Shown here: one piece after another, positions 4,126-34,588 of the stretch
How positions within the stretch are numbered: the stretch's first letter is position 1
Layout: each line of letters begins with the position of its first letter
NCBI RefSeq assembly: GCF_000210295.1
Contig: NC_026736.1
Location: forward strand, 372,001-436,000
Length of the DNA: 64,000 nucleotides
Reading direction: 5' to 3'
Source of the DNA: Trypanosoma brucei gambiense DAL972
Lineage: Eukaryota; Euglenozoa; Kinetoplastea; Trypanosomatida; Trypanosomatidae
Notes under the pieces: generated by a model
What the model was told of the DNA's origin: nothing
The model's input: only the letters and a program-made list of their open reading frames with translations
Databases searched by the model: none
Program-made: the position numbers and the translations under genes

Positions 4126-4893
4126 TTAAACACCCTTTGGGACCGCTTCGTTAATGTTCCCAAGACAGTCTTTCGCCTTCTCAAGGATATTCCGCACGTA
4201 AGTCCACTCCAAAACACTGCGGCGAAACCCCTGAAAGTCCTCCGCATCCCATTGCGCCTTGGTTGCTTCGTAGCACTCCATGTGGCGTTCCTCCAGATGA
4301 GCAATGAGAATGACGAGCCTGTCTCGGTACTCATTTGTTTCCTCAGGAGAAAACACGTACTCATTGGCTGCCATCATTTCAGCAAGAAACTCCTCTGGCA
4401 GGCTCATGTTCTCACCGGCATCCTGAAGCCGTTTGTTATCCTCCACATTACGGCCATCATCGTCACTCATGAGCATTTCCTCCTCCAACGGATCCAGAGG
4501 ACGTCCCTTTACAGCTTCAGCACGACTCAAGCGAGAAAGGTATTTGCAACGGCGGAATGGATCACGCAATGTTTCATATGACAAATTGGCATACATCGAA
4601 TCATCAACATTCGCCACATCAGTTGTTGTCGATGTCGTTACCGATCCCACCACGCCGCCAGGCGGTTCCGTTGAGTTGTTGGCATCTTGCACGTTAACCA
4701 AATCGGGATGAACACGACGCTGCAGTTTGTGGTAACTTCGCTGAACATCTGCAGCATCCAAATCGGGGGATTTCGGCAGTGACAAGTACGCAAAGAAGTT
4801 TCCCCTTCCAACGGTGCCAGCGGTGTGTAGATTTCGCGTCATCCCGTTAGCAAACCCCAGCCACGCGCTGGTTGCTAAGAAACGACGGTTCAT
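4126..4893 (-). CDS. JAC1: Mitochondrial J-domain co-chaperone for Fe-S cluster transfer (HSC20/JAC1 type)
   Basis: A 255-residue protein. I chose the ATG at 4893 (MNRRFLATSAW); an upstream frame extension has no ATG. The start looks like a mitochondrial presequence with spaced Arg. A J domain follows with FFAYLSLP, YHKLQRRVHPDLV (the HPD triad at about residues 63-65) and a second part LSYETLRDPFRRCKYL. The C-terminal third has the helical pattern of HSC20 (LPEEFLAEMM, then a long amphipathic stretch), which holds the scaffold ISCU. HSC20 proteins stimulate mitochondrial HSP70 to release Fe-S clusters from ISCU. A roughly 35-residue Ser/Thr/Val-rich insertion sits inside the J domain between HPD and the last J helix. 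The cysteine-rich N-terminal domain of animal HSCB is absent, as in yeast Jac1. Confidence 0.9.
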   Translation of the reverse strand: MNRRFLATSAWLGFANGMTRNLHTAGTVGRGNFFAYLSLPKSPDLDAADVQRSYHKLQRRVHPDLVNVQDANNSTEPPGGVVGSVTTSTTTDVANVDDSMYANLSYETLRDPFRRCKYLSRLSRAEAVKGRPLDPLEEEMLMSDDDGRNVEDNKRLQDAGENMSLPEEFLAEMMAANEYVFSPEETNEYRDRLVILIAHLEERHMECYEATKAQWDAEDFQGFRRSVLEWTYVRNILEKAKDCLGNINEAVPKGV

Positions 4894-5437
4894 CCCCACC
4901 ACCACCACCACCCTTTGTTGTTTACTGCACCTGTTCCAATACTATGTTTCCTTTAGTGAGGCAGATACATAAAGACGAAGAAGAGGGAAAGTGCAGACGC
5001 CATGTGGTAGAATCACAGTCAGGTTGATTTTTGTGCTATTGATTTAAAGGAAAGCCCAAAGTAGAAGAAGAGGGGGCAGGCGGATGAGCTTCCATGGGAA
5101 CGAGGAGAACCTTAATCATACACGGCAAGTTTTACGTACCGGAGCGCTTAAGACGAGACAAAAGCACGAACGGAACAGGGGAAGAGGGATAATAAAAGTG
5201 TAATACGTGAGAAGGAAAGAGGAATCGACTCTGTGCAATTCCACACTCCTCATTAAGGAGTTCTCAAGTGACTCGCAGAACGGAGTATATAAATAATGAT
5301 TATACATGAAGATTACGACGAGCAACAACAAGAGACCTTAGGCACCAAGAGAGAGAGAGAGAGAAAAATCGAGTAAGACAGGAGGAAGAAAAGAAAATGA
5401 AAACACGATGCGAAAAAAAAAGATCCCAGAGTGACCG
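4894..5437. other. Spacer between the LRR gene and JAC1
   Basis: No gene seen. The plus strand is purine-rich over about 4970-5410, including a GA repeat at 5350-5365, so the minus strand offers many pyrimidine tracts for trans-splicing of JAC1. I cannot choose one acceptor. Confidence 0.4.
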
Positions 5438-8131
5438 TCACACAGGGGTTGTGTTCGAGCGAAAGTAAGATCCTACCTCCTGTGCGTTCAGCCTCAGTAT
5501 CCCTTCAATATCAACGAAATTGTTAAGAGCACTTTCTTCACTCATGCCTGAGAGTCTCATTGCCTCCTGTAACCTCTCATAGTACAACGAGGCCGCCTGC
5601 AGCTTTGAAAATCGCTTAGGCAGCGCATCGCCCAGATCACCAAGCTCTTTTACCGCTGCATCACATTCCTCCTTAAAATACTCCAATCTACATCGCACAA
5701 AAGGCAAATACAACATGAGGTCCAGTAGTGCTGTGCTCAGCGTTAAAACCGGCTGCTTTGTTGCAGAAGCAGCGGCTGCCTCGCGCCCCACATGACGTGA
5801 CTCGGACCGCGTGGGTGAAACTCTCCTTCCGGACCGGCGATCACTTCTGGAACGCCCTGCACTAGGGGAGCGGTGGTTCCGTTTACTTTCCGTAACACTT
5901 GCAGTGCATTTATCGTCCATTTCGGAGGTAGGCTTCGGGAGAGTTTCTACAGTTCTAGATAGATACGCATTAGCAAATGCATCGGTAAGATTTTGAAGTG
6001 AAATGTTTTTTAACCCGCTATCAAAATCAAGCATATTCATTAGGCGCCTGGTCGTATTGCGATCTGGTAGTCCAAACTCCACATTTGTTGCGGCCATAAT
6101 GATTTGAGTCCGCTGGGAAGCCGAAGCGGTAGCAATACCCTGAAGAAGCGCGCCAGATCCTGCAGGAAGTCGAGCCGCATCACCCAATGCTCTCTTCTCT
6201 TTCCGTGAAGTTTTCTTTCCACGTTGGTGCTCCGGAGGTGGGAACGAATCCGCCATACCTGCCATGAGGTGGGACTCTATGGCACTTAATTCTGAAGGAA
6301 GCAAAAGTACCATCATGGCGTTGCAGAGGAACTCCTGGCGGTCTCTTGTGACAACTATGCTTGTACTGGTCTCATCTCCCTCCCATGGCTCAGGTATGGT
6401 GCAATCCTTGCACTGCTGAATTTCACAAAGAAGTTGACTGTGGTCGAATGCCACAGCGGAACTACCCACCGACCCCTTTTTCTGACTCGCAGTTAGGAAG
6501 TTCGAGGCCTTGTCCAGTAGATTTTTCATATTTTCTAAGCGGTGAGGATTCGGTAAACAGGAAGGTTTCCCCCAGATTCTCTTTTCTACCTTATCCTCAC
6601 GGTGAAGAAGGGCATCGTACATGACACTATGGTCAGTGTCACCTGGTAACTGGGGTGGGAGATTTGGCAATTGGATACGGTCCAACGAGACAACTGGAGC
6701 CGGCGCCGCTTGTTTTACCGCCCATTTCCCTGTTGTGTCAGGCGCCTGCTGCTTCGCTACCGAAGCCCTTCTCCGCATTAGCGCATTGCGAGGGGACACG
6801 TTCGTTTGTTCGACATTGCCTGCATTTTGAGAGGTTTCCTGTTGCTTAGACATCGCTCCGAGTTTCTCAGCGCAGAGAGGCATCCCCTTACCTGACATGG
6901 CCCAGACCAGGTGGAACCGTTTGTGGGTCTCAACCACCTCTTCTCGTTTCATTTCGTTTTCCCTGGCCTCGCGCATTTCGCGCAGCGCCTTTTGTTTCCC
7001 TAGACGGTGCACACTTTTCCCGAGGTATAACTCACAAGCAGAAGGTCTGAACGCCCTCCTTGGCACCACCTTTGGGTCATCCGCTCGTTGCCGAGCAGGT
7101 GTAAAAGTTTTAAAGAACGCTAAGGTCTTTAACACGGGTTCCTTACCTATAGTAACTGAAAAGAACCTTGGATCTGTGTGAGCCACCGTTGGTAGCCCCT
7201 GTGTACGCCCGTCTTGCAGAAGCGATAATTGCAAGCTCCTTCGCTGAATACTGCTGTCTGTCGATCGTCTTTGGAGCGGGGCTGATGAAGCCAGTATGTT
7301 TCCAAGCTCACACATGCTACCAAGCTCCCTATCTTTTTGGACTAACTGACTCACAACAGTGTTTCGCTCCTCCATTTGTACTAGTCGCCGATCAAGCAGT
7401 TCCAGTTGAGGTTGCTCACGAATGAGATAGGGTCGATAGCCCAGTTCATCACAGAGTGGATTGCCGCGTAAATCCAATTCACGGAGGTCGCGTAGTCGCT
7501 TAAGTTGTGTGGATACAGCAACCAAGTTAGATAAACGGTTGTAAGCCAACAGCAAAACCCTCAAATGACGCAAACGGGGAATATCTCCGTCAATCGTCCG
7601 TATCATGTTGTGCGACAGAAACAGACTCCGCAGAAGGTGACAACCCCGTGGCCTACACCATAATGTTTCTACTCCGTCATCAACGGCAGCATCATTCTCA
7701 GCTCTAGAGTTGCCGTTAGCAGTTCGCTTGGGAGGTAAAAGAAATGAAACCTCGCTTATCCGGTTGTTGGATAAGACAAGTGTATCTAGATTTTCCAGAT
7801 ATTGAACGTTCGTATGAAGACGCGTGATATTTTTTCTGCACAGTTCCAACTCCTTTGTATTTCGGTATTCCGAGCGTGGGATCTTGAGGGCAATGATGGG
7901 GTCAATGCAGTGATCCTGTTGCTCCGTTGGGTCTACGAACGCGGGAAACTTCTCCAGCTCGGACGACTCCTCATCTTCACTGTTTGAAGCCTCTCCACTC
8001 GTTTCTACTCTCGAGCTGCCTTTGTTCGCAGCCCTCGAAAAGGATATCGCACGACTTGCAATACGATTCATTCGTTCCTTATTTTTGGAACGCAGGAGAT
8101 CCGGATATGACCTATTTGCGGTTGTGTACAT
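5438..8131 (-). CDS. Leucine-rich repeat protein with long basic, disordered tail
   Basis: An 897-residue protein from the ATG at 8131; the open frame extends eight codons upstream without an ATG. Residues about 93-255 are SDS22-type leucine-rich repeats: LENLDTLVLSNNRIS, LRSLFLSHNMI, LRVLLLAYNRLSNL and LRELDLRGNPLCDELGYRPYLI, ending in the typical LRR cap. An Asp/Asn-rich insertion separates the second and third repeats. The rest is mostly charged and low-complexity, with an Arg/Ser-rich stretch (SPSAGRSRSDRRSGRR) near residue 770 and a helical C terminus. This architecture is frequent among axonemal and other cytoskeletal proteins of flagellates, but no motif here fixes the location. A pyrimidine tract followed by AG at about 8151 would leave a 5' UTR of about 19 nt. 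Confidence 0.85.
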   Translation of the reverse strand: MYTTANRSYPDLLRSKNKERMNRIASRAISFSRAANKGSSRVETSGEASNSEDEESSELEKFPAFVDPTEQQDHCIDPIIALKIPRSEYRNTKELELCRKNITRLHTNVQYLENLDTLVLSNNRISEVSFLLPPKRTANGNSRAENDAAVDDGVETLWCRPRGCHLLRSLFLSHNMIRTIDGDIPRLRHLRVLLLAYNRLSNLVAVSTQLKRLRDLRELDLRGNPLCDELGYRPYLIREQPQLELLDRRLVQMEERNTVVSQLVQKDRELGSMCELGNILASSAPLQRRSTDSSIQRRSLQLSLLQDGRTQGLPTVAHTDPRFFSVTIGKEPVLKTLAFFKTFTPARQRADDPKVVPRRAFRPSACELYLGKSVHRLGKQKALREMREARENEMKREEVVETHKRFHLVWAMSGKGMPLCAEKLGAMSKQQETSQNAGNVEQTNVSPRNALMRRRASVAKQQAPDTTGKWAVKQAAPAPVVSLDRIQLPNLPPQLPGDTDHSVMYDALLHREDKVEKRIWGKPSCLPNPHRLENMKNLLDKASNFLTASQKKGSVGSSAVAFDHSQLLCEIQQCKDCTIPEPWEGDETSTSIVVTRDRQEFLCNAMMVLLLPSELSAIESHLMAGMADSFPPPEHQRGKKTSRKEKRALGDAARLPAGSGALLQGIATASASQRTQIIMAATNVEFGLPDRNTTRRLMNMLDFDSGLKNISLQNLTDAFANAYLSRTVETLPKPTSEMDDKCTASVTESKRNHRSPSAGRSRSDRRSGRRVSPTRSESRHVGREAAAASATKQPVLTLSTALLDLMLYLPFVRCRLEYFKEECDAAVKELGDLGDALPKRFSKLQAASLYYERLQEAMRLSGMSEESALNNFVDIEGILRLNAQEVGSYFRSNTTPV

Positions 8132-21067: not shown

Positions 21068-22471
21068 TTACTCCAATTGTCGCACATGAACGACTTCAAG
21101 TATACCGTCTGACAAACGTCGCCGGATATGAAACTCAGCAATGCCGAAGTTCTCCAGCGTACGACCAACTTCATCCACCAATTGGCTGATTCGCGCAAGG
21201 TCATTGGGAAGTTGCGAGGAAGTTAACGACCGGAACGAAGCGACATTCATTCCAAGTGCACGTTGCAGCCACGCATTACCGAGATCCACGACAATTGCGC
21301 CATCTTCCCCAACACCAAGACTGGGCGGCAGTGGTTGCTGAACGGAGAGGAGAACCTTAAGTGAGAAGGATGGAGGTTCTCCAGGACTGCAATTCTCACC
21401 GTCACGGATAGTTAAGTCCGACATAACATCGGTAATTTTGCCGATCGCAGTTGAAAATGGGGGAGTTGCAGTTGGTGGCTGCTCAGGTGTAGGAGTGGCA
21501 GGCACAAAGTACTCTTGCGTAACCCTCGGATGTGACAAAGGCTCAGGAGTTGGTGTCAAGCGCGCTGCCGGTCTTGTGGGGGGTGTTGGTTGTGCAGATG
21601 CTGCCGCGGGGGGCGATGGTTGCACCACAGGCCCTGAAACTCCTTCATTGGTCTGATGACGATACTCTAATAGTTGCTGTTGTTGCTGTTGCCTCTGCTG
21701 TTGTTTTTGATGTTGTTGTTGGGTTGGTCCCGGCGCCACCCCACTGTGATTCGTATCACCCGCAATTCGAGGCGCGGGGGCGGATGAGAAAGTGGCGGTA
21801 TTCGTATTCGTGTTCGTATTCGTTGCAGAAGAAGCCTGCGCGATCCGCCCCGGGCGACCGGATAATTCGTGGAGCTTCTTGACGGCATAATCTTCCCAGA
21901 AAGATTGAATCTCCTTCACGAAACCACCCAGAAGTTCTGTCTTTTCTGACTCCAAAATAATTACCCCGTTCAACAAGCGCAGGGGTGCAAACAAACGCAA
22001 TTTGGATCCCAAAACCACGCCAGTCCGTAGCGCATCGCAACCCCGGCGACAGTCTTCCACCGCAAAGACCCGTACGAAACCATCTGTAAGGACCAGACGA
22101 AGCAGCCTCTGCCGCCGGCCATGATGACGTGCGGAATTATCTTTGCTCTCCAATGAACGAAGTGTTTCTTCAAGGCTTCCTGGCTCCGTTATTTCGGTGC
22201 AAACTCCCTCTGTGTCAGTACCCGTTGGTGCAATCTCACGAAGTCGCTGAGCGAGTGGAAGTGACACGTCTGCAACTTCGTTCACCTGAAGAATTATCGA
22301 TGGTACTATTTTCTGCCCGATAGCACCTTCTGGTACTGACAACTGAAAGTCATGTGGAAGCAGCCCACCACCATCATGCAACGGGGGAAGTTGTCTGACA
22401 ACACCGGGTGGGTCAAGTGAAGCTAAATATTCAAAGTTAGAGTTGAGAAACTCGGCGCTCGGCTGCTCCAT
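21068..22471 (-). CDS. RMI1: RecQ-mediated genome instability protein RMI1
   Basis: A 467-residue protein. The ATG at 22471 (MEQPSAEFL) is chosen; the frame is open upstream without ATG. Residues about 60-190 form the RMI1 N-terminal OB-fold: ILQVNEVADVSLPLAQRLRE, RLLRLVLTDGFVRVFAVE, GSKLRLFAPLRLLNGVIILE and ELLGGFVKEI, matching the family's DVS, LTDG and LGG positions. RMI1 stabilises topoisomerase III-alpha and, with a RecQ helicase, dissolves recombination intermediates; in T. brucei TOPO3-alpha and RMI1 restrain VSG switching. A disordered middle includes an Asn-Thr repeat (about 218-225), a Gln-rich tract (251-266) and Pro/Thr-rich sequence. The last 100 residues look folded but I cannot name them. 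A predicted acceptor AG lies at 22483-22482. Confidence 0.9.
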   Translation of the reverse strand: MEQPSAEFLNSNFEYLASLDPPGVVRQLPPLHDGGGLLPHDFQLSVPEGAIGQKIVPSIILQVNEVADVSLPLAQRLREIAPTGTDTEGVCTEITEPGSLEETLRSLESKDNSARHHGRRQRLLRLVLTDGFVRVFAVEDCRRGCDALRTGVVLGSKLRLFAPLRLLNGVIILESEKTELLGGFVKEIQSFWEDYAVKKLHELSGRPGRIAQASSATNTNTNTNTATFSSAPAPRIAGDTNHSGVAPGPTQQQHQKQQQRQQQQQQLLEYRHQTNEGVSGPVVQPSPPAAASAQPTPPTRPAARLTPTPEPLSHPRVTQEYFVPATPTPEQPPTATPPFSTAIGKITDVMSDLTIRDGENCSPGEPPSFSLKVLLSVQQPLPPSLGVGEDGAIVVDLGNAWLQRALGMNVASFRSLTSSQLPNDLARISQLVDEVGRTLENFGIAEFHIRRRLSDGILEVVHVRQLE

Positions 22472-30457: not shown

Positions 30458-32773
30458 TTATTTTTTACCCCCGTGCCCTTTTGTGGAACTGTCGCTGCCG
30501 GAGTGGTTATTGGCATTAACTGATGAACCGCTACCACCAGGCGCACTGCTCCCAGACGAGGCGGAGGAATTTGAAGCTGTTGAGTGCGCACCGGCGTGCT
30601 GCGAAGATTGTCCACCGTTTCTTCCACTGGACGAGCGCTTCTTCAACATGCGTTCCGCCTCACGATCCGCCTTTTGTTTATTCCACGCTTCCTTTTTCTC
30701 TCGTAACATTTGCCGCACCCCTCGCCCCTCCAGCACGCGAGGTGTTGGTGGTGATGGAAAGATAACACTCCGACAGTTGCGGGTGCCACAACTGCATGCA
30801 AATGGCGGCATACGTTCGTCACATAACGTGGCATAATCCACGGTTAACTCCTCACCACTATTAATTGTCCGCTTAGAGACAAGCGTCAGCGTCCGGCCCT
30901 GCAAGAAATGCATATTGGGTTCACAAGAGTGACGAATTGCAACTGCCTGATGAAGGCGATCACCACGTAAAATCACACACCCCACCACTGGATCCTCTTC
31001 CCCAAGTTTATATACAGCCTGAGCAATAACGGGAACAGTGTGGGCCGCATCACTGAAGAGCGCCTTGCCGGGCCGTACGGTTCGGCTCGCTTTACTCGAA
31101 AAATTTCCACGAGAATCGTGACTGATGAAGTACCATGGCCGCCTTGCCTTCTGCTCACGGACTGCGCGGTTCACTGCATTGTCCACAAAGCGGTCGTGAT
31201 CCCATGATTTATCGCCCACCACCATCAAGTCCGCGAAGTCACCGCCATCCTTCTCGCTGTACCACATCCCACAGTTTGGGTTGATTTCCAAAAAGTATAC
31301 ATCACCTTTGGGGTCTATACGAAAGTCAACACGGCCATATCCGACCCCGTTCATAATGTGTTGGAAGGCATTCCGGGCCATGTCAATAATCCGTGGGTAG
31401 GCCGGGTCATTATGAGGAAGAAAACTGCATGCCTCATCGTTGCATTCCATGGACCACTTCTTGTCAAAATAGGCAAAGTCATCTTCATTTTGCAAAAAGT
31501 TAAACATTAAAGGCCTGAACACCTTGACGCCATGCGGACTCCCGCTGTCGGCACATGCGAGAACGGTGCCCTCACGTCCTCGAATAAACTCCTCCACCAG
31601 AGCGTGATTGAACTCTTTCAGAAATGTTCCAACCTTCACTTTCAACTCGTCCAGAGTGTCACAACGGTTATCCTTGTTAATGCCAACAGAAGCGTAACCG
31701 GAAAGATGTTTCACGATGACAGGGAACCGCAGATGACGACATTTCTTCGCCAAACCTTCCGTTTTATCCAAAAGCACAAAGTTAGGTGTATTCACACCGG
31801 CCCCGGCAACAAGCACTTTCATATCAATCTTGCTGGGTTCAAAACTGCGCGAGTCTGTGCCCGTAAATGCTGCGTTGTGCTCCTCCAGTGCCTCTAATAC
31901 GTCGATACCAGCACGCTTCTCGTCTTTACCACCGTCACAAAGGTTAAAGAAAACGTCGAAGTTGTTTGAGGTTACCAATTCTCGCACCTGACGATAGGCA
32001 TCATCTTTACGCACAGCAACTTCCGTGAAGGAGTACCTGTTCTTGTCCTTCCGCACCCTGTGAGCGGGGCTGCAGTGGTAATTGTCCATTTCCGCAGTGA
32101 CAGAATTGGTCCCTTCGTAGCTGCTGTTGAGGACACATACGCGCAATTGCTTCTTTACGCTCGCCCTTCTCCTGCCTAGAGTTTGAGATACCACCATCCC
32201 AGTCGCCGATTTTGTGCCGTGGGAACCATTAGCGGATGAAGAGCCCGTTGACATTGCTGTTGCTGTGTTCGTGGTCGATGCACCGGATCTATTCACCACT
32301 GACCTGGAAGAGGAAGCTTTTACTTTCTTCAGCCCAATCACATCTTCTTTCCCTTTTCTTGCTGACCTTCCCCGATTCGATCCCTGCCCTATTTCCACTG
32401 CTGTAGTCGTCCCTGAGCTTTTACCTGACGCACCACCGCCGTTACTCGTACCTGATGCACTCAACAGGGCTGTACTCTTCGTGCCGGGGTTAATGCCATT
32501 ACCTCCAGGATGAGCGGATGTACCGACGGCGGCGGGAGGCACGGCGCCTCCAACTGTCAAACAACTTGAAGTACCACCACTTTTACTGCTCACAGAAGAG
32601 GCAGCACCACGGGATGGGAGAATAATAGTTGTGTTGGATGACTTCCATCGCAGGGTGTGAACAGTCACGCAACTCCACACAGCCACTGTTGAGGTTTTGG
32701 GTATTAATACATCTGCAAGGGGACATCGTAAGACTGAAGCCACACCAAAACGTCGAATTGCTATTCTGTACAT
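30458..32773 (-). CDS. Fusion of a D-Ala-D-Ala-ligase-like ATP-grasp enzyme and a SET/post-SET domain
   Basis: A 771-residue protein from an ATG. MYRIAIRRFGVASVLRCPLA could be a mitochondrial presequence. Residues 50-205 are Ser/Gly/Thr-rich. Residues about 210-540 form an ATP-grasp ligase: VFFNLCDGG, PVIVKHLSGYASVGI (ATP-binding Lys about 354), ALVEEFIRGREGTV, VGYGRVDFRIDPKGDVYFLE followed by INPN, the metal-binding end. Residues about 565-650 look like a SET domain: a weak N-terminal part, then AIRHSCEPNMHF and SGEELTVDYATL, followed by a post-SET Cys motif CSCGTRNC (about 659-666). The tail is basic and Ser/Gly-rich. ATP-grasp ligases join a carboxylate to an amine through an acyl phosphate; SET domains methylate lysines. 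Substrates are unknown. A T/C tract with AG at 32791-32790 gives a short predicted 5' UTR. Confidence 0.88.
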   Translation of the reverse strand: MYRIAIRRFGVASVLRCPLADVLIPKTSTVAVWSCVTVHTLRWKSSNTTIILPSRGAASSVSSKSGGTSSCLTVGGAVPPAAVGTSAHPGGNGINPGTKSTALLSASGTSNGGGASGKSSGTTTAVEIGQGSNRGRSARKGKEDVIGLKKVKASSSRSVVNRSGASTTNTATAMSTGSSSANGSHGTKSATGMVVSQTLGRRRASVKKQLRVCVLNSSYEGTNSVTAEMDNYHCSPAHRVRKDKNRYSFTEVAVRKDDAYRQVRELVTSNNFDVFFNLCDGGKDEKRAGIDVLEALEEHNAAFTGTDSRSFEPSKIDMKVLVAGAGVNTPNFVLLDKTEGLAKKCRHLRFPVIVKHLSGYASVGINKDNRCDTLDELKVKVGTFLKEFNHALVEEFIRGREGTVLACADSGSPHGVKVFRPLMFNFLQNEDDFAYFDKKWSMECNDEACSFLPHNDPAYPRIIDMARNAFQHIMNGVGYGRVDFRIDPKGDVYFLEINPNCGMWYSEKDGGDFADLMVVGDKSWDHDRFVDNAVNRAVREQKARRPWYFISHDSRGNFSSKASRTVRPGKALFSDAAHTVPVIAQAVYKLGEEDPVVGCVILRGDRLHQAVAIRHSCEPNMHFLQGRTLTLVSKRTINSGEELTVDYATLCDERMPPFACSCGTRNCRSVIFPSPPTPRVLEGRGVRQMLREKKEAWNKQKADREAERMLKKRSSSGRNGGQSSQHAGAHSTASNSSASSGSSAPGGSGSSVNANNHSGSDSSTKGHGGKK

Positions 32774-33718: not shown

Positions 33719-34588
33719 TCACAAGTCACCGAAGAAACTCGCGTCCTCTAAAAGTTTTCCAACGCGCACGTGGCCCATGAGAGGCGGTCCATCAGGGTCT
33801 TCCAAAGAAGCTCGATCTCCGCGCATCCATGTGAATTTGAGCACCCTTGAAAAGTTTCTCCCCTCCCAGTTCTTGTTATCGAAGTTTTGTTCAGCGATGT
33901 AGACAAGTGAGGGCTGTCGACGCTCCTTCTTCAGTTCGCGAAGTGCCGCCTCTCCACCAGCAGCAGATACGTCATCTTCCACCTTCACAACCACGGCAAC
34001 GTGGCCGCGTGGAAAGTATGCCTTATAGTCCGAGTTCCATACCACAACATCGCCCACGAGCGGTGTGTGCCGCTTGCGCCTCTTCGTTGTCCTGACCTCC
34101 ACCTTATTTTCGAAGTTAATCCGCTCGTATAGACGGTGCATCCCGCTTGAACCAAAAAACTTGAGGTTCTCCCAGTACAAATCGTGTCTGCTTCCACCGA
34201 AATAGACGAAAATTCCTCGGGTGTGTAAAAGGTAGCGAGCAACAAACTCATCCGCGGTCCAACACAACCCAGTTGGTGCTCGCTTCCACTCGGACCCATA
34301 CGGCATTTTCTTCATTACTTCATGTGGATAACCAATTGTAGTGTAGGCGTATGTCTCTGACAGCCAGTGGCGGTGGCAGTTGCTCATAGAAGGGACGTCT
34401 GAACTATAACCTACAACAGAGTCCATGGGAGCGTTGCAATGCTCAAGTGGGTTGAAATCCATATGCATCCCATGTCTCTTTGATTTCTGCGGGGACCCCC
34501 CACCGAGGAGAACGTAGACGAATAGAAAAAGCAGGAGAGTAGCCGGCACAGCGAGCTGAAACTTCTGTTTTCGGTTTAGAGACACCAT
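33719..34588 (-). CDS. Membrane-anchored CHAP (amidase-type) domain protein
   Basis: A 289-residue protein from an ATG. Residues about 12-32 form one hydrophobic segment after a basic start (NRKQKF), predicting a type II membrane protein or uncleaved signal anchor. The rest matches the CHAP/NlpC-P60 cysteine peptidase fold: GLCWTADEFVARYLL with Cys109, then PLVGDVVVWNSDYKAYFPRG, HVAVVVKVE with His196, and SLVYIAEQNFDNKNW with Glu233/Asn235, in the expected order Cys-His-polar. CHAP domains cleave gamma-glutamyl or peptidoglycan amide bonds; in trypanosomatids the best known one is the amidase half of trypanothione synthetase. The domain here is alone, without the synthetase. All three catalytic positions appear kept, so activity in the secretory lumen or at the cell surface is plausible. 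Substrate unknown. Confidence 0.85.
   Translation of the reverse strand: MVSLNRKQKFQLAVPATLLLFLFVYVLLGGGSPQKSKRHGMHMDFNPLEHCNAPMDSVVGYSSDVPSMSNCHRHWLSETYAYTTIGYPHEVMKKMPYGSEWKRAPTGLCWTADEFVARYLLHTRGIFVYFGGSRHDLYWENLKFFGSSGMHRLYERINFENKVEVRTTKRRKRHTPLVGDVVVWNSDYKAYFPRGHVAVVVKVEDDVSAAGGEAALRELKKERRQPSLVYIAEQNFDNKNWEGRNFSRVLKFTWMRGDRASLEDPDGPPLMGHVRVGKLLEDASFFGDL

Follow-up and report, generated by a model that had tools for sequence, protein, structure and literature searches.

The gene considered here lies in a 64,000-nucleotide stretch of the Trypanosoma brucei gambiense DAL972 genome (contig NC_026736.1, positions 372,001 to 436,000), called the window below, in which a single open reading frame (ORF) at 30458..32773 on the minus strand encodes a 771-residue protein joining an ATP-grasp ligase domain to a SET domain. 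This protein, referred to as type A, is plausibly, though only tentatively, the ligase-keeping paralogue of an old bifunctional family whose jobs have been divided among kinetoplastid paralogues. Indeed, type A and another kinetoplastid group, type C, display reciprocal losses of active-site residues, a pattern that, judged from the sequences, suggests a division of labour rather than one bifunctional chain. The domains, the reciprocal losses, the conservation of both halves and the co-occurrence of the family with SET proteins of the BurB type were all established computationally. A protein search found the product to be 99% identical to a T. equiperdum protein (P0001) named 'ATP-grasp domain containing protein, putative'. 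The original prediction, which placed a ligase and a SET domain in one chain over positions 30770-32146 (about residues 210-668), is confirmed by Pfam, alignment and AlphaFold2 (AF2) models.

Three paralogues were found in the window's own genome by a search with a short kinetoplastid homologue, namely the type A window gene on contig C3, a short form called type B (C9:43310-44728, minus strand, also present as locus L064) and type C (C10:1121298). Type C homologues come from Trypanosoma, Leishmania, Leptomonas, Angomonas and Bodo. The EukProt label 'Tbor', which we take to be Trypanoplasma borreli, occurs in all three groups (P0036 in type A, P0054 near type B and P0168 in type C), which suggests that the groups separated before the trypanosomatids arose. 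A tree of 85 rows sets type A (16 rows) and type C (15 rows) each on one side of a branch with a support of 100 in the Shimodaira-Hasegawa-like approximate likelihood ratio test (SH-aLRT), and two changes are required for the 14 rows with the label B.

Active-site residues were scored on a 188-row alignment built without rows under 400 residues (6 of the 180 P proteins), one distant row being dropped from the counts. It includes 11 of the 13 bacterial fusion loci, as L006 and L008 were missed by the motif filter, and near-duplicates are counted apart (Tb_C3/P0001, Tb_C10/P0121 and Tb_C9/P0085). Membership in types A and C follows search rank over the full set and was checked in the tree on 16 and 15 rows only. 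Eight ligase residues (the Lys and two Glu of the ATP site, the loop Lys, Arg, Asp, Glu and Asn) and eight SET residues (the SET-I Trp, the Asn, His and Cys of the NHSC motif, the Tyr and three post-SET Cys) were considered. All 49 type A rows retain the full ligase set and none retains the full SET set, with six of eight residues kept in 47 rows and five in the other two. The reverse is found in type C, where the SET set is full in 46/46 rows, Asn and Trp included, whereas the ligase residues are reduced to none (9 rows), one (25 rows), two (11 rows) or three (1 row). Among the other 92 rows, both sets are full in 59, the ligase set in 87 and the SET set in 64, and seven rows have four or fewer SET residues. 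All 19 type B rows listed have the full ligase set, and seven of them show a change at the SET Asn or Tyr, namely five named Trypanosoma sequences, the copy of this genome and its near copy P0085. In this assembly, the type B frame has no in-frame ATG ahead of the domains, its first ATG giving 382 residues of a 517-codon frame; the start of P0085 is intact. Mean pairwise identities for ligase/SET amount to 0.59/0.57 for type A (16 rows), 0.72/0.59 for type B (11 rows), 0.27/0.65 for type C (16 rows) and 0.58/0.59 for bacteria (12 rows).

The ligase half of the window protein is an ATP-grasp domain of the D-Ala-D-Ala ligase (Ddl) type with its N-terminal subdomain, spanning residues 210-544 (31142..32146, minus strand like all features of this gene). 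Pfam recognises the C-terminal part of D-Ala-D-Ala ligase at residues 321-503, above the curated cut-off. The ATP-binding Lys355, in the sequence VIVKH (31709..31711), is invariant in the alignment and kept in 49/49 type A rows, and the metal-binding end E-I-N-P-N (residues 496-500, 31274..31288) aligns with LEVNTVPGM of a solved Ddl. The Lys and the metal-binding end singled out by the original prediction stand within a Ddl-topology fold carrying all eight conserved ATP/Mg residues, and the ligase of the window protein is, as predicted from these residues, very probably active. The loss of catalytic ligase residues, named in that prediction as a sign against it, was seen in the paralogous type C and in none of the 49 orthologues. 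The protein scores far below the cut-offs for Ddl itself (72.1 bits against 245.65 for TIGR01205 and 71.4 against 243 for NF002378). Ddl fills the best matches to the ATP-grasp part in the sequence-profile and fold lists, considered for their best rows only. TTL is not among the best rows of either list, which does not exclude kinship to it. In type A, the Lys of an FKH motif is lost in 49/49 rows and kept in 92/92 rows outside types A and C, which hints at an altered ligase substrate. The trypanosome is not known to have peptidoglycan, and the earlier reading, a Ddl-type ligase whose site looks intact and whose substrate must be a different one, is supported.

The SET half, with its post-SET part and a shortened SET-I region, occupies residues 547-674 (30752..31135) according to Pfam, alignment and AF2. 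The PF00856 match (32.6 bits, cut-off 22.4) covers only profile positions 64-104 of 105, at residues 612-647. The active-site Tyr647 (30833..30835) is kept, as is the post-SET C-x-C-x4-C motif already noticed in the original prediction (residues 660-667, 30773..30796, with Cys660, 662 and 667). At residues 614-620 (30914..30934), the sequence R-H-S-C-E-P-N presents the canonical N-H-S-C motif with Arg for Asn. This Asn is replaced throughout type A, by Arg in 41 rows, Lys in three, Gln in three, Ala in one and Thr in one; the SET-I Trp is likewise absent from 49/49 rows, and the two GxG glycines are retained in 1/49 and 0/49, the window protein having GNFS. The helical SET-I stretch is gone together with its Tyr and Trp. 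The distance from the GxG position to HSC is 57 residues in six of the eight type A rows shown (61 and 66 in the two others) against 69-71 in the 16 rows shown outside type A, and the AF2 model of type C has helices at 339-345 and 348-357 where the type A model has strands. The SET of the window protein also lacks the post-SET TEW stretch of the BurB type, and with its clade lying apart from the BurB side of the SET-only tree it does not belong to that type. The contacts of BurB with S-adenosylmethionine (SAM) were not used for judging type A because bacterial fusions differ from BurB there too. In DIM-5, changing the NHSC Asn to Gln is reported, in the paper on TTLL12, to strongly lower both activity and SAM binding (PMC3520985). 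Taken as sequence, the type A SET probably has no ordinary methyltransferase function. A SET fold devoid of a methyl-donor pocket, the other sign that the original prediction had named against itself, is thus largely what the 49 type A rows present at the level of sequence, and, the SAM-contact Asn and the SET-I Trp being gone, its proposal that this chain ligates and then methylates finds no support.

The nearest solved relative of these SET domains is BurB. Among Protein Data Bank (PDB) SET entries, it gives the best match to the fusion profile (72 bits, MLL1 following with 54) and to the type C alignment (71.5 bits). BurB is described as converting free methionine to S-methylmethionine (PMC12542666, PMC7496086). 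Of the 13 bacterial fusion loci, five (L004, L005, L009, L037 and L055) carry a separate SET gene on the strand of the fusion and no more than 4 kb away from it; the L004 gene reaches 58 bits with BurB, against 27 for the next PDB entry. In L037 and L055, two further Ddl-type ligases stand between the separate SET and the fusion, and L037 also includes an ABC transporter, of which both the membrane and the ATPase domains are present. These compact same-strand clusters (L037:3486-9413 and L055:5383-9446), which rest on mechanically called frames, are possibly small peptide biosynthesis clusters. At E<=1e-8, the separate SET of L055 has matches in 5 of the 199 genomes searched from its order, one of them being the genome of L055. 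In L009, a DUF3326 gene split across two called frames (4273-5579, plus strand) lies between the separate SET and the fusion. A luciferase-like monooxygenase is encoded about 3 kb or less from the fusion, on differing strands, in three loci (L001:4155-5216, L004:5858-6865 and L005:9914-10927). No partner common to most loci appeared among ten neighbours chosen from seven fusion loci (L001, L002, L004, L005, L006, L008 and L037), and Pfam gave no shared partner among ten chosen neighbours of the 42 loci that carry the ATP-grasp part alone. Blast clustering of the latter loci returned families common to many of them, mostly from Roseibacillus/Akkermansiaceae. Those checked were set aside as generic, namely a sulfatase family (12 loci), a nucleoid-associated NA37 protein (11 loci) and a 9-locus cluster of which one member is a sigma-54 activator.

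The association with BurB-type SETs extends to eukaryotes. The moss homologue P0102 has such a SET as its N-terminal part, which scores 185.9 bits against a profile of six sequences, P0102 being one of them. In the trypanosome genome, the separate SET of L009 matches six places at E<=1e-3, all of them within one 1449-residue ORF on C9, and a general SET search lists 32 places. This ORF (C9:1267484-1271833, minus strand, equivalent to L065:3485-7834) contains about nine tandem BurB-type SET units, in which strong and weak units alternate (86.6, 48.4, 90.4, 25.9, 100.8, 20.6, 108.1, 1.5 and 99.9 bits), and its nearest solved structure is BurB (E of 9.1e-15 against 4.7e-6 for the next). In a SET-only tree, the separate SETs, the nine-unit SETs and BurB fall on one side of a branch with a support of 88. 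The SETs of type A make up a clade by themselves (98), placed among those of the fusions and borne on a stem of 0.9 changes per column. A literature search combining S-methylmethionine and kinetoplastids returned papers that, by their titles, concern Ascaris.

The fusion is widespread but patchy. A protein search that scored 7991 candidates among 5.8 billion proteins gave 243 homologues at E<=1e-3, and both Pfam domains are present in 109 of the 120 matches listed. The same fusion, which the original prediction had proposed to look for elsewhere, occurs among these listed matches in other kinetoplastids and in plasmodiophorids (Trypanosoma, Leishmania, Leptomonas, Strigomonas, Porcisia, Perkinsela, Plasmodiophora and Spongospora), in the moss Ceratodon, the green alga Sanguina, the giant virus Fadolivirus and scattered bacteria such as a Gaiellaceae and a Rhodothermales bacterium. 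A protein with the EukProt label ANDGO, presumably the jakobid Andalucia, came to light in a later search. The homology runs through both domains, making the window protein a member of the family. Scanning bacterial and archaeal genomes yielded 55 loci, 13 with the full fusion and 42 with the ATP-grasp part alone, and a scan of viral contigs with the giant-virus homologue P0098 found no relative. Some database entries, P0015 for example, already name the domain pair. A literature search for the ATP-grasp and SET fusion found no paper on it, in line with the original view of the system as undescribed; its matches were the paper on TTLL12 (PMC3520985) and one concerning drug side effects (PMC4029543). 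This is a conserved family for which no paper was found, and its paralogue set is more interesting than one bifunctional chain.

The possible mitochondrial start suspected by the original prediction is supported, as a presequence-like N-terminus, for part of type A and less well for the window copy itself. A presequence-like N-terminus, which may act as a mitochondrial import signal, was delimited at residues 1-45 (32639..32773) from the sequence and a clade comparison. It was recognised in 22 of 47 type A rows and in none of 21 short forms or 46 further rows, in a comparison whose type C group wrongly contained P0166. The N-terminus of the window protein contains one acidic residue and fails the presequence criterion, so that it is not a clean case. 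A mitochondrial compartment is possible but uncertain for the window protein; among the rows compared, the presequence-like stretch appeared in type A alone.

From these observations we infer activities, a substrate class and a compartment as follows. The ATP-grasp half would activate a carboxylate as an acyl-phosphate and couple it with an amine, which would yield a dipeptide-like product. In enzymes that keep both functions, the SET half would use SAM to methylate a small amino-acid-like group of the same pathway, as BurB does. Type A, possibly mitochondrial, would ligate, its retained SET serving structure or binding or working in a re-tuned form, whereas type C would methylate and keep an ATP-grasp fold that is catalytically empty. 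Type B would keep the ligase, its SET residues being altered in Trypanosoma. A role in providing or altering the substrate is possible for the separate nine-unit BurB-type SET protein that this genome also encodes. Because the ligase is of the Ddl type and the bacterial loci offer tandem ligases and BurB-type partners, a small amino-acid or peptide substrate is rated somewhat likelier than a protein.

Several observations weigh against this division of labour, and some of them favour a type A protein that is itself fully bifunctional, its re-tuned SET with a short BurB-like SET-I methylating the substrate or the product of the ligase. The His and Cys of HSC, the active-site aromatic (Tyr in 47 rows, Phe in two) and the three post-SET Cys are kept in 49/49 type A rows, and the SET is as strongly conserved as the ligase, that is, constrained rather than decaying. 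BurB, an active SET enzyme, also lacks the NHSC Asn, so the Asn change alone is no proof of lost methyltransferase activity; moreover, the BurB Y124F variant is reported to retain over 60% of activity (PMC12542666). A fully bifunctional type A is nevertheless unlikely in our estimation, since the Asn and Trp present in 46/46 type C rows are lost in 49/49 type A rows along with the GxG glycines and the SET-I Tyr, the clade stands on its long stem, and the DIM-5 substitution points in the same direction. Other difficulties concern the context. In the remaining 8 of the 13 bacterial fusion loci, no separate gene for a BurB-type SET was found close to the fusion; one of those genomes (G007) has a weaker separate SET match on another contig. 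Among the 199 genomes of the order of L055, 92 were matched, 91 of them by partial matches, and the full fusion was found only in the genome of L055 itself; overall, the bacterial context is thin and comes mostly from metagenome assemblies. The placement of BurB in the SET-only tree is unsure, as it is represented by an 89-residue piece on a branch of 1.35, the rows closest to it by path belong to types C and B, and the sequence most identical to it (47% over 76 columns) is the SET of a fusion. Finally, if type A is mitochondrial and type C cytosolic, both would not work together directly.

Another explanation sees in type A a protein modifier, in which the ATP-grasp domain would add amino acids to a mitochondrial protein or to tubulin in the manner of TTL or TTLL12, and the SET would recognise the target. 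A survey attributed to Staneva and others covered 29 putative SET methyltransferases of T. brucei, which are reported to be mostly concentrated in the cytoplasm, only eight having some nuclear signal (PMC8559703), which fits non-histone roles in general. TTLL12 provides a precedent, as it joins SET-like and TTL domains, neither of which is reported active in vitro (PMC3520985). The ATP-grasp part of type A matches Ddl in the best rows of the lists, among which TTL does not appear, its domain order is opposite to that of TTLL12, and the tandem Ddl-type ligases of two bacterial loci, one with an ABC transporter, suit a small product, all of which leaves a protein modifier improbable. A pseudoenzyme, acting as a scaffold or regulator with both halves non-catalytic, would accommodate the lost FKH Lys and the Asn, Trp and GxG changes of the SET but is very unlikely, because the eight core ligase residues are kept in 49/49 type A rows, and type C illustrates the state of a ligase site that is not under selection.

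Extended beyond kinetoplastids, the division of labour between ligase-keeping and methyltransferase-keeping paralogues would belong to an undescribed old pathway running from bacteria to protists, mosses and trypanosomes, a scenario that we regard as speculative and rather doubtful. BurB-type SETs would methylate a free amino acid, perhaps giving a sulfonium or N-methyl group, and ATP-grasp-SET ligases would build it into a small peptide, which would then be methylated a second time. In kinetoplastids, the bifunctional enzyme would have been split, with the ligase in the mitochondrion and the methyltransferase in the cytosol, and the amino-acid methyltransferase would have been expanded to the nine-unit chain. 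If this were true, a human parasite would contain methylated peptide metabolites of a new class. Should the division of labour be right, a conserved ligase of the sleeping-sickness and Leishmania parasites would make a metabolite not yet known, and some SET domains counted as possible histone methyltransferases would act on small molecules. The opposite active-site losses of the two paralogues would allow a clean assignment of each half-reaction.

In the window protein, a Ser/Gly/Thr-rich stretch (residues 46-204, 32162..32638) precedes the ligase, the distance from the start to the domains differing widely between orthologues, and a basic, then Ser/Gly-rich tail (residues 675-771, 30461..30751) follows the SET, both being read from the translation. 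Upstream of the fusion gene and on the same strand, the window encodes a CHAP-domain (amidase-type) protein (33719-34588, minus strand) with no PDB match at E<=1, and one 174-residue ORF was called between the two genes. A protein with an RMI1 N-terminal OB-fold domain (62.9 bits) is encoded at 21068-22471 on the minus strand.

Compared with known systems, the window protein shares with Ddl the fold and the ATP/Mg residues while standing far below the TIGR01205 cut-off; the solved enzyme ends in EVNTVPG where the window protein has EINPNCG, and the latter adds a C-terminal SET. BurB (PDB 9l4t and 9l4v) is the nearest solved SET to the fusion SET and to the separate SETs tested. It acts on a free amino acid and is described as a 172-residue single-domain enzyme of a Burkholderia pathway (PMC12542666), whereas the fusion has two domains, and type A SETs group with the fusion SETs apart from BurB. 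TTLL12 likewise joins a SET-like domain to an ATP-grasp-type ligase with critical residues lost. Its SET-like domain is N-terminal and its ligase of the TTL type, whereas the ligase comes first in the window protein; both its sites are degraded in one chain, whereas the losses described here are reciprocal between paralogues (PMC3520985). The distant matches P0200-P0206 are Ddl-like ligases from bacteria that carry a class I (Rossmann) methyltransferase domain in the same chain. This domain is N-terminal in P0202 and of another fold class than the C-terminal SET of the present family; these proteins are apparently a second, independent invention of the ligase and methyltransferase pairing. Fusions of a ligase with a methyltransferase and SET enzymes acting on small molecules are kinds already known.
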